42,499 nucleotides of DNA from Bacteroidota bacterium. Its GTDB lineage: Bacteria > Bacteroidota > Ignavibacteria > UBA10030 > UBA8401. The notes under the pieces were generated by a model, which searched no databases, was not told the origin of the DNA, and was given only the letters and a program-made list of their open reading frames with translations. The translations under genes and the position numbers were made by a program. The stretch lies in contig JAUXTU010000073.1 of NCBI GenBank assembly GCA_030679145.1, positions 1-42,499 on the forward strand. Reading direction: 5' to 3'. This document shows positions 1,072 to 12,739 of the stretch, piece by piece; within the stretch, counting starts at the first letter, position 1, and the number at the start of each line of letters is the position of its first letter.

Positions 1072-1133
1072 AGATTTTTCGCTGTGCTCGAAATGACAAT
1101 GATTTAATATTTCTTTGCGTCCTCAGCGGTAAA
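1072..1133 (-). repeat. Degenerate palindromic-repeat remnants between sufB and sufC
   Basis: Read on the minus strand, 1098-1072 begins TGTCATTTCGAGCACAGCGA and then AAAATCT. It resembles the left end of the element at 11961-12070 (GTCATTTCGAGCGCAG, then GAGAAATCT). Next to it, 1112-1133 on the plus strand reads like a second kind of repeat end (CTTTGCGTCCTCAGCGGT). Neither has its matching inverted arm here, so these look like eroded half-elements. They fill most of the 97-nt gap between sufB and sufC. Confidence 0.5.
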
Positions 1134-1142
1134 TATTTCTTA

Positions 1143-2579
1143 TTATCCTACTGAACCTTCTAAACTGATACCAAGTAACTTCTGTGCTTCAACAGCAAAT
1201 TCCATTGGAAGATTTTTGAACACTTCTTTTGCAAAACCATTGATGATCATTGAAACTGCATTCTCGGTATTGATCCCTCGCTGTTTGCAATAGAATATCT
1301 GATCTTCGCCGATCTTTGATGTAGAAGCTTCATGTTCAACACTTGACGTACTATTTTTCACCTCTATATACGGAAATGTATTCGCACTGCATTTATTTCC
1401 AATCAGCATCGAATCACATTGAGTGTAGTTGCGGGAGTTGGTTGCATTTTTTCCAATGTTCACCAAACCGCGATAAGTGTTGTTACCTCTTCCTGCCGAA
1501 ATTCCTTTTGATATGATCGTGCTGCGAGTATTCTTTCCGATATGATGCATCTTCGTTCCGGTGTCTGCATCCTGACGATTATTGACAACAGCAACAGAAT
1601 AAAATTCACCGATTGAATCGTCTCCCAGCAGAATGACTGATGGATATTTCCACGTAATTGCAGATCCGGTTTCGACTTGAGTCCAAGCGATTTTCGATTT
1701 CGCACCAAGACATTTGCCACGTTTTGTGACGAAATTATAAATTCCACCTTTTCCGTCTTTGTCACCGGCGTACCAATTCTGAACAGTTGAATATTTTATT
1801 TCTGCATTTTCAAGTGCAACAAGTTCTACGACAGCTGCGTGCAATTGATTTTCATCGCGCATCGGAGCAGTGCAGCCTTCTAGATAACTGACATACGCGT
1901 TGTCTTCAGCAACGATCAATGTCCGTTCGAACTGTCCCGTGTTTGATGCATTGATGCGAAAATATGTTGAAAGTTCCATTGGGCAGCGAACCCCCTTTGG
2001 AATAAAGCAGAATGAACCGTCGCTAAATACTGCGGAGTTCAGTGCGGCAAAATAATTATCCGCATACGGAACAACAGACCCGAGATATTTTTTCACAAGA
2101 TCAGGATGCTCATGAACTGCGTCGGAGAATGAACAGAAAATAATTCCCTTCTCTTTCAGTGTCTCTTTAAATGTTGTCGCAACCGAAACGGAATCGAACA
2201 CGGCATCGACAGCAACACCAGTCAATCGTTTCTGTTCGGTAAGGGAAATACCGAGTCGTGCGTAGGTATCAAGCAGAACCGGATCGACTTCATCAAGACT
2301 ATTCAATTTCTTTGCTTGCTTTGGCGAAGAATAATAACTAATCGATTGATAATCGATCTTTGCGTATTTCAGATTCGGCCAGCGCGGTTCTTCCATTGTC
2401 TTCCAGACACGAAACGCTTTTAAACGCCAATCTGTGAGCCATTCAGGTTCATTTTTCTTTTTTGAAATGATACGCACAACATCTTCGCTCAACCCGGGCG
2501 CAATGGTATCCGATTCGATGTCGGTGGTAAACCCGTATTTATATTCCTGCGATACTAATTCTTCAATTGTTTCTGACAT
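1143..2579 (-). CDS. sufB: SufB, Fe-S cluster assembly scaffold subunit
   Basis: SufB is the scaffold subunit on which sulfur and iron are assembled within SufBC2D. The 478-aa product matches the family length. It carries the SufB core [20 protein letters not shown], the motif TQCDSMLIG with Cys388, and [14 protein letters not shown] with His416. By family knowledge, the equivalents of this Cys and His are needed for cluster building at the SufB-SufD interface. The C-terminus ([14 protein letters not shown]) is also typical. It lies downstream of the iscA-like gene, separated by a 193-nt gap holding a composite palindromic repeat, and upstream of sufC. Confidence 0.97.
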
Positions 2580-2629
2580 ATTTTTTATTTTCTTTTTAAA
2601 GAGAGTTATCTGAAAAATTGATTGTTCCC

Positions 2630-2739
2630 GTCATTCTGAGCGAAGCGAAGAATCTTATTTTATTCTTCAGCAGAAAATCGAGATTCTTCGTCGCTGCCTG
2701 CCCGACTGAGTCGGTCAGGCGGGCGCTCCTCAGAATGAC
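2630..2739. repeat. Composite palindromic repeat (110 bp) with a nested hairpin, inside the Fe-S operon
   Basis: GTCATTCTGAG at 2630-2640 is an exact inverted match of CTCAGAATGAC at 2729-2739. Inside, AGAATCT and AGATTCT add a second complementary pair. A separate hairpin at 2696-2720 (GCCTG-C-CCGAC, loop TGA, GTCGG-T-CAGGC) interrupts the right half, as if a second short repeat had landed in the first. Its GC-rich composition differs from the surrounding sequence. The element sits between the iscA-like gene and sufB, so a transcript crossing it would fold strongly. Confidence 0.8.
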
Positions 2740-2772
2740 ATTGAGGATAGATTTTTCTGATGGTTCAAATAA

Positions 2773-3132
2773 TTAAACACCAAACGAACTGCCGCATCCG
2801 CAGGTCTTGGCTGCCTGGGGATTATTGAAAACAAAACCTCTTCCGTTCAAGCCATCGGTAAAATCCAGTGTTGTGCCAGAAAGATAGAACATACTTTTCT
2901 GATCGACCGTAATCTTTACGCCGTTCTTTTCCAGAATCATATCCTTTTCTTTCACTTGATCGTCAAACGCTAGCACGTACGACAATCCTGAACATCCGCC
3001 ACCTTTTACGCCAAGACGTAGATTGTGGTTCTCTGGAATATTATTCTTTTCTTTGATCGCATGGACTTCTGCGATTGCTCGTTCCGTAAGGATAATATCC
3101 TCTTCTTGTGTTTGAGTCATTACTTCAGACAT
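2773..3132 (-). CDS. A-type Fe-S carrier protein (HesB/IscA/SufA/ErpA family)
   Basis: A-type carriers bind an Fe-S cluster and pass it from the scaffold to target proteins. The 119-aa product has the three conserved cysteines: Cys47 in GGGCSGLSY and Cys111/Cys113 in the C-terminal CGCGSSF. The family core FTDGLNGRGFVFNNPQA is intact. The chosen ATG at 3132 has GGAG about 8 nt upstream; an internal Met5 is possible but less well placed. It lies 20 nt downstream of the 97-aa unknown gene. Which A-type subfamily (IscA, SufA, ErpA) it belongs to cannot be told from sequence alone. Confidence 0.93.
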   Translation of the reverse strand: MSEVMTQTQEEDIILTERAIAEVHAIKEKNNIPENHNLRLGVKGGGCSGLSYVLAFDDQVKEKDMILEKNGVKITVDQKSMFYLSGTTLDFTDGLNGRGFVFNNPQAAKTCGCGSSFGV

Positions 3133-5266: not shown

Positions 5267-6196
5267 ATGACAACTAATCAATTCTCAGAAATTCTCGGCG
5301 AAATAAAGCTTTCAAAAAAAGATTCGGATGGTTTTCACTCCATTGCAGTTATAGGTTTAGGAGTAATGGGTCAAGGAATCGCTCAATCGATCTCAACTGC
5401 TGGTATTGAAGTTATTGCGGTTGAAAAATCCGAAAAGCGTCTGCATCATCAAATAAAATCGATGGATGAAACATTGGAGAACGATATTCATCGGTGGACG
5501 ATGACAAAAAGTGAAAAACGTGCAATACTCTCCCGTATCAAAGGAACAACAGACATAGCCACGATCGCAAACATTCCAATTGTGATAGAGGCTGTGGATG
5601 AAAATTTTGAACTTAAAAAGAAATTATTTCATGAACTTGACCAGTTGTGCTCACCGGAAACGATTTTAGTTTCTAACACATCTACATTGAATCTTTCAAA
5701 ACTTGCGACATACACAAAACGGGCGGACAAAGTGATCGGGATGCATTTTCTGAATCCTGTTCCAAAAGTTCCGCTCGTTGAACTTGTCCGTGGAATGAAA
5801 ACGTCGGATGATACATTCAACACAATTCAAAAATTAGCCCAGCGACTCGGAAAGACTCCGATCGAGGTATTCGAGTACCCGGGATTTGTAACAACTCGTA
5901 TCATCATTCCATTATTGAATGAAGCGATGTACATTTTAATGGAAGGTGTTGCGACTGCAGAAAGTATCGACACAGCAATGCGTCTCGGTTATGAGTTCCG
6001 ATATGGCCCTCTGGAACTTGCCGATATGATGGGACTCGACGAAGTTCTTGCATGGATGGATTCACTCTTCCACGAACTTGGAGAAGCAAAGTACCGTCCT
6101 TGCCCTTTGTTGCGACAAATGGTGCGTAAAGGAAAGCTTGGTAAAAAAATGGGTGAAGGATTTTTTAAATACGATGATCACGGAAAGAAAGTATGA
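5267..6196 (+). CDS. 3-hydroxyacyl-CoA (3-hydroxybutyryl-CoA) dehydrogenase
   Basis: This enzyme oxidises 3-hydroxyacyl-CoA to 3-oxoacyl-CoA with NAD(P), or works in reverse in butyrate-type pathways. The 309-aa product has the Rossmann motif GLGVMGQG at residues 30-37 after an extra N-terminal stretch of about 23 residues. The catalytic pair is His160 in GMHFLNPV and Glu172 in LVELVRG. The C-terminal domain motif RLGYEFRYGPLELADMMGLD is typical. The ATG at 5267 has no clear ribosome binding site, but upstream ATGs are out of frame. The stop overlaps the ackA ATG (ATGA), so the two are coupled. Chain-length preference cannot be read from sequence. Confidence 0.93.
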   Translation: MTTNQFSEILGEIKLSKKDSDGFHSIAVIGLGVMGQGIAQSISTAGIEVIAVEKSEKRLHHQIKSMDETLENDIHRWTMTKSEKRAILSRIKGTTDIATIANIPIVIEAVDENFELKKKLFHELDQLCSPETILVSNTSTLNLSKLATYTKRADKVIGMHFLNPVPKVPLVELVRGMKTSDDTFNTIQKLAQRLGKTPIEVFEYPGFVTTRIIIPLLNEAMYILMEGVATAESIDTAMRLGYEFRYGPLELADMMGLDEVLAWMDSLFHELGEAKYRPCPLLRQMVRKGKLGKKMGEGFFKYDDHGKKV

Positions 6197-11174: not shown

Positions 11175-12095
11175 TCAATTCAGAATAAAATTCTTAATTG
11201 TAGAAATGTAATTTGCTTCACCCATCTTCCACGGAACTTCCGAATGATCCGCTCCCGGAACTGCGATGAACGTTTTCGGTTCATTTGCGTTATTGTATAT
11301 CACTTTTCCATTCTTTTCCATATCAATAAATTTGTCATCAACACCGTGAAGAATTAATACAGGAGAAGTGATGCGTTTTATCTTCTCTGCCGTTGTATAT
11401 TCTCCTTTCATCACAAATGTCCCGGGTAAATCTAACAATGTTCCGCTTTGAGTCAATGCACTTGCGGAAGCAAATGTTGATTCAAGGATCAATCGCCGTG
11501 GAGTGAATGTCTTTGCGGCAAGATTTGTCGCCGGTGCACCGCCGAGTGAAAATCCATACACTGTAATCAGTGTGTCGTGAAATCCTTTTGATTGCAGATA
11601 ATAATACGCCACATTCGCATCGGAATAGATCGCCTCTTCCGTCGGCTCTCCTTCGCTCATTCCATATCCTTGATAATCATAGATGAACACGTTAAATCCC
11701 ATTTTATAAAATAACTCGACTCTGTCCCAATAGAATTGTAGATGATCGCGGTTTCCGTGATTATAGAGAACGACATTCTTCTCATTTATATTAGATGACT
11801 TTACGAAATAGCCGTAGATCTTTTTCTCCTGAGAGTTCAACACAACTTGCGTTCGTAACGATTCAGGAATAACAGTCGTGCGGAGATTGTATGCTGTCAA
11901 AGTATCGTTATTGAACAACGAGTTGTCAAGATCGAAGCAGCCGGAGAATAAAATTGCGATCAATGTCATTTCGAGCGCAGTCACGAAGTGACGAGCGAGA
12001 AATCTCGTTTTTAATCCCAACAGAAAAAAAGAGATTCCTCTCACGCTAACGCGGGCTCGGAATGACATTGATTGTAAATTCTTTATTTTTTTCAT
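11175..12095 (-). CDS. Alpha/beta hydrolase (BEM46-like), lipoprotein-type N-terminus interrupted by an in-frame palindromic repeat
   Basis: The mature part (from about residue 75) is an alpha/beta hydrolase of the BEM46/prolyl-oligopeptidase-like kind. It has the nucleophile elbow VYGFSLGGAP, the Asp in LHGVDDKF and the His in GADHSEVPW. The substrate is unknown. The N-terminus is odd. MKKIKNLQS is followed by about 34 residues encoded by an intergenic-type repeat (11965-12066), and then LIAILFSGC, a hydrophobic stretch ending in a lipobox-like FSGC. Removing 102 nt (34 codons) would give a normal lipoprotein signal peptide with Cys near 19. The ATG at 12095 overlaps the upstream stop (ATGA). 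Translation might also start at an ATG inside the repeat (11969). Confidence 0.85.
   Translation of the reverse strand: MKKIKNLQSMSFRARVSVRGISFFLLGLKTRFLARHFVTALEMTLIAILFSGCFDLDNSLFNNDTLTAYNLRTTVIPESLRTQVVLNSQEKKIYGYFVKSSNINEKNVVLYNHGNRDHLQFYWDRVELFYKMGFNVFIYDYQGYGMSEGEPTEEAIYSDANVAYYYLQSKGFHDTLITVYGFSLGGAPATNLAAKTFTPRRLILESTFASASALTQSGTLLDLPGTFVMKGEYTTAEKIKRITSPVLILHGVDDKFIDMEKNGKVIYNNANEPKTFIAVPGADHSEVPWKMGEANYISTIKNFILN
11961..12070. repeat. Palindromic repeat element inside a coding region
   Basis: The ends CAATGTCATTTCGAGC (11961-11976) and GCTCGGAATGACATTG (12055-12070) are inverted copies with one mismatch. The inner sequence carries GAGAAATCTC and GAGATTCCTC blocks as in intergenic members of this repeat class. 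From GTCATT (11965) to AATGAC (12066) it is 102 nt, a multiple of three, with no stop in the hydrolase frame. It is related in design to the element at 2630-2739 and to the remnant at 1072-1098. Confidence 0.85.
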
Positions 12096-12739
12096 TTCAA
12101 ACTATATTGAAGTCCAAAAAATAATCCGACATTTCCTCTGCCGCTGATTGATGCAACTCCCTCAAACACTCCGTGGCACGTATTGCGGTTCATCGCCATC
12201 CATTTTGATTCGATCTGCATTTCCATTGTATTGGAGATAGGAAAACTATATCCGATAAACGGCGACACGAACAGATCAGAATTGGAAAATTGATACAAAT
12301 TATCTGCACCGAAATAGAACAGGGAATACTCTCCCACCAAATAACTTCCGGTCAGCGTTCCGGTTGGATAGAGCCGCATTGTATTTCCTCGAAATGCATC
12401 CCAAAAGAAATAAGCTCTACCATTCAGAGTGATCTCCGGAAGTACTCCGGTTTCAAAAAATAATCGTGTGGAAAATCCGCCGTCGAGTCCAACATCTTTG
12501 AAAAGCAAAGCAGTAACATGAGCATTGCCGTAGAGTGTAAGATCTGACGTATACCCATACATCGCACCGAGATTCAAATATGGAACCGGAATTGCAATTC
12601 CACCGAATGGAATGATCGGTCCGCCGAGCGATGCAATTACTTCTGTTGATCCTTCTTCAATCGGTCGGATTGGCTGCGTGATGCCGCAGCCAACGAATAA
12701 GGAGATGATAATGATGGTAAGCGTGTTGTAAAATTTCAT
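12092..12739 (-). CDS. Predicted outer-membrane lipoprotein/barrel-like protein of unknown function
   Basis: I do not recognise the family. The 215-aa product starts with a lipoprotein-type signal peptide (MKFYNTLTIIIISLFVGC, lipid-bearing Cys18). It continues with Gly- and aromatic-rich strands, for example GGIAIPVPYLNLGAMYGYTS and FVSPFIGYSFPISNTMEMQI, and ends in a strand (VGLFFGLQYSLK). This pattern suggests a small outer-membrane beta structure, perhaps 8 to 10 strands. The stop overlaps the ATG of the hydrolase gene (ATGA), so the two form a coupled pair of envelope proteins. There is no strong ribosome binding site in front of the ATG. Confidence 0.75.
   Translation of the reverse strand: MKFYNTLTIIIISLFVGCGITQPIRPIEEGSTEVIASLGGPIIPFGGIAIPVPYLNLGAMYGYTSDLTLYGNAHVTALLFKDVGLDGGFSTRLFFETGVLPEITLNGRAYFFWDAFRGNTMRLYPTGTLTGSYLVGEYSLFYFGADNLYQFSNSDLFVSPFIGYSFPISNTMEMQIESKWMAMNRNTCHGVFEGVASISGRGNVGLFFGLQYSLK

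Follow-up and report, generated by a model that had tools for sequence, protein, structure and literature searches.

Comparison with insert-free orthologues showed, at the level of sequence, that several genes for predicted exported proteins had taken up a short palindromic element, in frame and downstream of the start codon that they had inherited. The element was analysed in a window of 42,499 nucleotides (the whole stretch of DNA under study), in the genome to which the window belongs (G000; 3.83 Mb in 123 contigs), and in a family set of 22 genomes that included this one.

Position of the Element in the Hydrolase Gene

The palindromic insert of the window is hosted by an alpha/beta hydrolase gene (11175..12095, minus strand; 306 aa) whose product is a predicted lipoprotein. 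This product matched the Pfam models PF12146 (Hydrolase_4; E 1e-17, with residues 105-209 as the best stretch) and Abhydrolase_1. Its start codon (12095-12093) and the stop codon of the upstream gene (12092..12739, minus strand) overlap as ATGA (12092-12095), which favours the upstream start of the hydrolase. The upstream gene encodes 215 aa, for which Pfam gave nothing at E ≤ 0.001. The TTGAAATGA junction of the hydrolase gene recurs in the relatives G001, G004, G005, and G010.

The element is a REP-like dimer of about 111 bp (11963..12073, minus strand), which was matched by the covariance model R1 at E 5.9e-19. It touches codons 8-45 and supplies residues 10-44 of the hydrolase. As a preliminary description of this DNA had claimed, it sits in frame within the signal peptide, between the start codon and the hydrophobic core, and the hydrolase frame runs through the whole insert without a stop codon. 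The hydrophobic end of the signal peptide (11937..11963, minus strand; codons 45-53) reads LIAILFSGC, in which FSG, judged by eye, is lipobox-like and is followed by Cys53. A lipobox usually has L at -3; the FSGC of the hydrolase does not. The n-region was unusually long, with a net charge of +8, the uncharged run before Cys53 comprised only 11 residues, and the mean KD of MTLIAILFSGC was 2.15.

Architecture of the Palindromic Element

The inverted ends of the insert, TGTCATTTCGAGC (11964-11976) and GCTCGGAATGACA (12055-12067), are one base apart, in agreement with the one mismatch described before. The left inverted-repeat arm (11951..11976, plus strand; 26 nt) is 85% complementary to the right arm (12055..12080, plus strand; 26 nt), with which it pairs. 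Two REP-like units, whose limits were drawn by eye, could be distinguished. The first (12031..12073, minus strand) reads in gene sense AATCAATGTCATTCCGA, a hairpin, and AGGAATCTC; the second, TGTCATTTCGAGCGCAGTCACGAAGTGACGAGCGAGAAATCTC (11964..12006, plus strand), is inverted and contains the inner hairpin GTCACGAAGTGAC. An AT-rich linker (12007..12030, limits likewise by eye) joins both units. RNA folding of 11953-12078 gave -50 kcal/mol (z = -6.3), and none of 200 shuffled sequences folded equally well.

The preliminary description had given the segment a 102-nt core of 34 codons (11965-12066). The register of this interval is one base off the codons, and the joining of MKKIKNLQS to LIAILFSGC removes 35 codons (105 nt) rather than 34. 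The element also proved larger than this core, since the model spans 11963-12073 and many copies have outer arms of the AGAAGCCATCTCAAAAAT..ATTTTTGAGATGGCTTCT type. The residues KNLQS of the hydrolase probably belong to the element too, because copy C57:157651 reads MSHLKNLQSISFRR, and removal of the core alone would not give back the precise ancestral sequence.

Alignment of the copies showed two inverted units of the form TGTCATTYCGA-(hairpin)-GGAATCTC, which flank an AT-rich linker of about 20-25 nt. In the window copy, the inverted pair has TGTC at either end. Across 17 copies, the final C of this tag and the ATT that follows it were invariant, the first T and the G were conserved in at least 90%, and the third letter was more variable. 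The stems of the units consisted of ATTCC..GGAAT (5 pairs) and were uneven beyond, and the RNAalifold consensus comprised these 5 pairs and inner pairs. The loops were variable in length and enclosed further hairpins, for example CCCGCTTTAGCGGG. As is demanded of a MITE, the element has inverted repeats at its termini and occurs in many short copies. A known Rfam family was ruled out as the identity of the element, as the window region 11900-12150 had no Rfam match at E ≤ 1.

Copies Across the Genome

A DNA search of G000 for the repeat gave 59 rows. The covariance model R1, built from 17 copies of this genome with the window copy among them, gave 148 rows at E ≤ 0.01, which merged to at least 84 distinct places; this number is a lower bound, with 150 of 2432 first-look candidates scored. 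The other genomic copies that the preliminary description had looked to were thus found, and a single oddity was ruled out.

The window itself holds a second full copy (2623..2746), which is intergenic and lies between a sufB-like gene (1143-2579, minus strand; named by eye) and the gene at 2773-3132. The sufB-like gene is downstream of this copy, and its frame stops inside it. At 1082-1103, between the genes 287-1045 and 1143-2579, a lone unit end, TGTCATTTCGAGC (1086-1098, minus strand), was seen, which is perhaps a remnant. Elsewhere in the genome, two copies in series (G000:C59:5537-5629 and 5847-5993) were located at the start of one lipoprotein-like gene, one of them within the signal peptide and the other upstream.

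A convincing target-site duplication was not found around the 84 copies, which had 6 direct repeats of at least 8 bases vs. 2.7 in shuffled pairs. Two candidates were noted. A copy with long outer arms (G000:C31:4053-4145) is flanked by a perfect 12-bp direct repeat, AGAGAAGGAAAG, and the copy at C57:97881 is flanked by one of 8 bp. Mobilisation by a RAYT (Y1_Tnp) received no support, as the core motif was found at none of the 7 loci of G000 that matched Y1_Tnp, and no transposase for the element emerged from this Y1_Tnp search.

In other genomes, R1 at E ≤ 1e-6 gave 13 rows in G003, 11 in G004, and 12 in G010. By eye, further in-frame, signal-peptide-like cases were recognised in the gene for a TonB-dependent receptor of G005 and in that for an M16 peptidase of G010. 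Two G003 copies with an open frame lack an ATG ahead of them; these copies are probably extragenic. One G010 copy (L212; G010:C157:17177-17299) lies in frame in the middle of a gene for a P-type metal ATPase, within the match to the HAD hydrolase model.

Association of the Element With Signal Peptides

For each place, a coding frame was sought up to 250 nt downstream on either strand with a three-periodic score, which was trained on the 39 window genes and chose the right frame for 39 of 39 on this, its own training set. Of the resulting 79 copy/strand pairs, 5 had a coding margin of at most 10 and were excluded, leaving 74 pairs from 71 copies, in which the C59 lipoprotein gene is counted twice, being behind two copies. 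The gene frame was open through the whole element in 15 of the 74 pairs. Signal-peptide-like genes accounted for 13 of these 15 vs. 22 of the 59 others (Fisher 6.5e-4, by a rule written after the pattern had been seen). The rule is lenient, calling 13 of the 39 window genes, some of them plainly cytosolic. It followed a plain hydrophobicity test, which at cuts of 1.8, 2.0, 2.2, and 2.4 gave p values of 0.077, 0.029, 0.018, and 0.048, respectively.

The hydrolase of the window (C45) is therefore one of 13 signal-peptide-like cases in the genome, a pattern that the preliminary description had missed. The other cases are a NosL-type lipoprotein (C18:145349), a PD40/peptidase-MA protein (C12:10868), an M14 carboxypeptidase (C72:15554), a DUF4249 protein (C57:97881), a YkuD-type protein (C95:12028), a cytochrome-like protein (C69:10618; CxxCH by eye, no Pfam match), a redoxin (C18:71229; a weak copy, R1 E 1.3e-5), the lipoprotein-like gene at C59:5537, and signal-peptide-like genes at C107:15794, C49:6615, C49:8826, and C9:5919. 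In the 13 genes, the hydrophobic core lies directly behind the element or in its end. An upstream ATG was present in the open frame of 12 of them, the nearest being 5 to 37 codons ahead of the element, and the redoxin gene has only a GTG there, with no ATG. For the remaining two of the 15 genes, of which one encodes an AMP-binding enzyme (AMP-ligase) and the other a protein that was named GNAT-like by eye, a start downstream of the element is evident. By eye, 0 of the 15 open-through genes had a mature protein part before the element.

The open frames of the element had a mean charge of +2.64 vs. +1.00 for random open segments. This basic charge is mostly a matter of composition, because shuffled elements gave +2.08; even so derived, basic open frames would suit an n-region.

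Empty Sites in Orthologous Genes

Orthologues were sought for 6 of the 13 genes, of which 5 were informative; the YkuD-type gene (C95) had no orthologue in the genus at E ≤ 1e-30. The start codon lies ahead of the element in four of the informative genes, and in one the element brings the start.

The M14 carboxypeptidase of G000 reads MKNSI, the element, and GVLLLLFFFVVSFSFAQ. Its site is empty in G002, G005, G006, G007, and G010, which read like MNKILVIMMLTAFSFAQ and have the same start context, GGAG-N5-ATG, as G000. The 5' segment in G000 is 129 nt longer than in G005 and G007. Four relatives did not give a clean comparison: longer N-termini without a recognisable element were present in G004 and G018, the G003 gene contains masked bases and, close to its beginning, a stop codon, and the match in G001 is without the 5' part.

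The NosL-type lipoprotein of G000 begins with MKKNEFFLP, which is followed by the element and then by IPMTLMFLFISC. The site is empty in G001, G004, G005, G010, and G017, in a comparison that leaves out the G013 orthologue (E 9e-11). In the NosL signal peptide of G007 (L161), an apparent half unit was seen by eye in frame (MKHISSHIIRSAAKNLMLAALPFILISC), to which R1 gave no match. For the PD40/peptidase-MA protein, 7 of 7 congeners are empty, and the gene of G003 (MMRKKFFAGYQFLFLISLCSLPLYSQ) is 159 nt shorter than that of G000.

The cytochrome-like gene (L254; G000:C69:10618-10722) has an insert of 152 nt as aligned and is empty in G001, G003, and G004. The frame of its native start is now closed by a stop behind eight codons. 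The gene frame is opened by an ATG that lies in the outer arm of the element and overlaps this stop as ATGA. Over 32 empty or unclear loci of the relatives, R1 had no match at E ≤ 1.

These starts bear on the reading in which the element is a 5' leader and the hydrolase starts internally (for example, at TTG codon 26 or ATG codon 43), the upstream frame being incidental. For many REPs near the beginning of ORFs, such an arrangement was proposed by Di Nocera et al. 2013 (PMC3733652). The hydrolase has in-frame ATG, GTG, or TTG at codons 10, 18, 26, 38, 43, and 45, an ATG stands in the right outer arm just ahead of the hydrophobic core in C107, C49:6615, and C57:97881, and downstream starts are evident for the AMP-ligase and GNAT-like genes (2 of 15) and for the two G003 copies; the cytochrome-like gene does take its start from the element. 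A 5' leader is nevertheless unlikely for the hydrolase, as its start and upstream context, like those of the M14, NosL, and PD40 genes, precede the element and are common to insert-free relatives. Moreover, a start at ATG codon 43 would yield MTLIAILFSGC, which has no charged n-region, and the insert aligns in frame and without gaps between two carriers.

The empty sites also bear on where the element inserts. Those of the cytochrome-like gene and of NosL read like AAAAATATTTTTTTTC and AAATAAATATTTTTTAGC, respectively, and the outer arms are themselves AAAAAT and ATTTTT. If the element preferred A-rich/T-rich junctions, which would lie at the border of the lysine-rich n-region and the core, insertion and not selection would make the signal-peptide bias. 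Such a target preference is rather unlikely: the direct repeats around the 84 copies lent it no clear support, and by eye the PD40 and M14 sites fit it less closely.

Distribution and Age of the Hydrolase Insert

In the family set, 14 of the 22 genomes had a hydrolase orthologue at E ≤ 1e-60. The same insert as in the window was present in 2 of the 14, namely G000 and its congener G003. In G010, which belongs to another genus, a related but different palindrome of the GTCATTGCGAG type lies in frame at the same place (R1 E 1.1e-6). DNA relatives of this palindrome gave 14 rows in G010, the query's own place counted, and 10 rows in G000, and this second kind forms further in-frame, signal-peptide-like cases in an M1 peptidase of G000 and a FixP_N protein of G010. 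The hydrolases of G001, G004, and G005 contain, in frame, a short segment alignable to one unit; R1 matched this segment weakly in G001 (E 0.022) and did not match it in G004 and G005. Insert-free hydrolases, with no R1 match, were found in 8 of the 14 (G002, G011, G012, G013, G015, G017, G018, and G019). Distant orthologues were thus without the inserted residues, and the earlier likening of the repeat to palindromic elements inside Rickettsia genes was upheld.

In the mature part of the hydrolase, 105 of 165 synonymous sites differ between G000 and G003 (64%; dS about 1.4, near saturation). Because G003 carries the same insert at this divergence, we infer that the insert is old and that its entry predates the split of G000 and G003. 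The recent jump that had been supposed was ruled out by the same comparison.

Overall, the insert is identical at 90 of 102 positions in G000 and G003, with zero gaps and an in-frame alignment. By codon position, its differences numbered 3/5/4, vs. 27/23/109 in the mature part; as they fall evenly on the codon positions, the residues of the insert are not apparently selected as protein. In codons 10-43 of the insert, 4 synonymous differences were counted over about 25 sites (Fisher 1.3e-5 vs. the mature part), and the last 42 nt of the insert (window 11964-12005; codons 31-44) are identical in both genomes (L032). An intergenic copy at an orthologous place in G000 and G003 was kept less well, with identity at 77 of 104 positions (two N being taken as differences) and 16 gap columns. 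The low synonymous divergence, the identical 42 nt, the less conserved intergenic copy, and the strong fold of the element would agree with an insert that is kept for its nucleic-acid structure. A hairpin early in the coding region would then adjust translation, the stability of the mRNA, or export during translation, and the peptide would be a by-product. This explanation is rather improbable, since it draws on one gene pair and one control pair, since synonymous divergence could also have been lowered by gene conversion or by a transfer of the 5' end at a late stage, and since G001, G004, and G005 retain at most a short in-frame stretch. The low synonymous divergence may thus come from structural constraint or from gene conversion, and neither explanation is trusted here.

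In the insert-free hydrolases, with starts chosen by eye, the cysteine is at position 17-25 vs. 53 in G000. This displacement and the uncharged run of only 11 residues could suggest that the signal peptide is disrupted or changed by the insert and the enzyme sent elsewhere; a possible change of destination had been raised in the preliminary description. Relocation is highly improbable, because the carriers still have a start codon, a hydrophobic run, and the cysteine. Furthermore, G003 has retained the insert, and another genus carries a palindrome of its own at this site; both point to a tolerated function.

Proposed Mechanism and Implications

The elements are quite likely to be non-autonomous REP-dimers that are tolerated as long, cleaved-off n-regions of exported proteins. 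A repeat of two inverted, TGTC-tagged REP-like units, probably non-autonomous, lies between the start codon and the hydrophobic core, and the insert would be translated as a long basic n-region. The hydrophobic core of the hydrolase would be made partly from the end of the element (..ALEMT-LIAILFSGC), and lipoprotein signal peptidase would cut before Cys53 and thereby discard the insert. The same elements would have done this repeatedly. Insertions in signal peptides may survive because this region demands no more than a start codon, positive charge, and a hydrophobic stretch, and because the mature protein keeps nothing of them, while insertions elsewhere in genes, judging from the distribution of the copies, would mostly be purged. 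In the cytochrome-like gene, the element itself provides the start codon.

A further idea, which is offered tentatively and is open to considerable doubt, is that, in this lineage, REP-dimers of at least two related kinds repeatedly colonise the n-regions of exported proteins and at times provide a gene with its start codon, with the hairpin leader becoming a selected part of the export signal through co-translational timing or expression. If true, this would account for the unusual synonymous conservation of the insert.

The comparative evidence that palindromic repeats enter the signal peptides of conserved exported proteins in frame suggests a rule, by which such elements survive in genes where the protein part is cut off. 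Export tags, which are removed anyway, would then be a tolerant landing place for repeats. The old question of translated repeats at gene starts becomes testable in this way, and the genes offer a natural series of unusually long n-regions for probing the tolerance of export signals. They also carry a warning, as gene callers may trim such genes to a wrong start codon.

Comparison With Known Repeats

Palindromic elements in Rickettsia genes (Rickettsia palindromic elements, RPE) were reportedly described by Ogata in 2000, as cited in PMC3733652 and PMC2229807. By description, the element resembles RPE in being a short palindromic repeat with many copies that lie in frame in conserved genes and are apparently translated. 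An in-frame position in conserved genes with insert-free orthologues, which marks RPE, was found here for the hydrolase and for the M14, NosL, and PD40 genes. The two differ in phylum and in that the in-frame read-through copies found in G000 precede signal-peptide cores; one RPE-like, mid-gene in-frame copy is that in the P-type ATPase of the relative G010. R. conorii proteins with an N-terminal RPE-1 are said to be expressed in vivo (PMC3733652).

REP dimers tagged with CGTC/TGTC were reported from Chlorobi and Bacteroidetes, among others (PMC3733652). Each of their units carries an unpaired CGTC, TGTC, or CCTC motif at one end. They resemble the element in the TGTC tag, a stem that starts with AT, inverted dimers with a spacer, and no dedicated transposase; some dimers lie within longer outer palindromes, and intragenic copies are known. 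The dimers described there, mostly head-to-head and with spacers often of 20-100 bp, fit the two inverted units and the linker of about 20-25 nt seen here. The stem given there is 8-9 bp long and starts with A-T pairs; here 5 pairs are continued unevenly. The loop given is 4-5 nt, whereas the loops here are longer and are themselves hairpins (PMC3733652). Because of this difference in loop length, the element was classed as CGTC-like and was assigned to none of the four families. Di Nocera et al. 2013 (PMC3733652) regarded most N-terminal-coding copies as maybe extragenic, whereas here, in several genes, the empty orthologues place the insertion behind the start.

Repeats in signal peptides have been described before. 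In Delihas 2007 (PMC2759123), part of a predicted signal peptide is encoded by a MITE-like repeat, and RU sequences occur in two further predicted signal peptides (YPO2495 and YE2643). Those RU/MITE signal peptides, as presented there, are isolated loci (PMC2759123), whereas the present cases concern several conserved exported proteins, can be aligned with orthologues that lack the insert, and belong to a bias seen across the genome. The Coxiella repeats QMITE1 and QMITE2 are bacterial MITEs of 150-400 bp, of which QMITE2 contains a REP (PMC5896051). QMITE1 often overlaps ORFs, and its copies encode basic peptides according to a section heading of that paper (PMC5896051); unlike here, a signal-peptide bias was not among the features described in its available part. 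In the open-licence PMC literature, no report of a genome-wide signal-peptide bias of such repeats was found. RPE-like insertions and isolated MITE-derived signal peptides are thus known, and a signal-peptide bias with comparative proof appears to be new.
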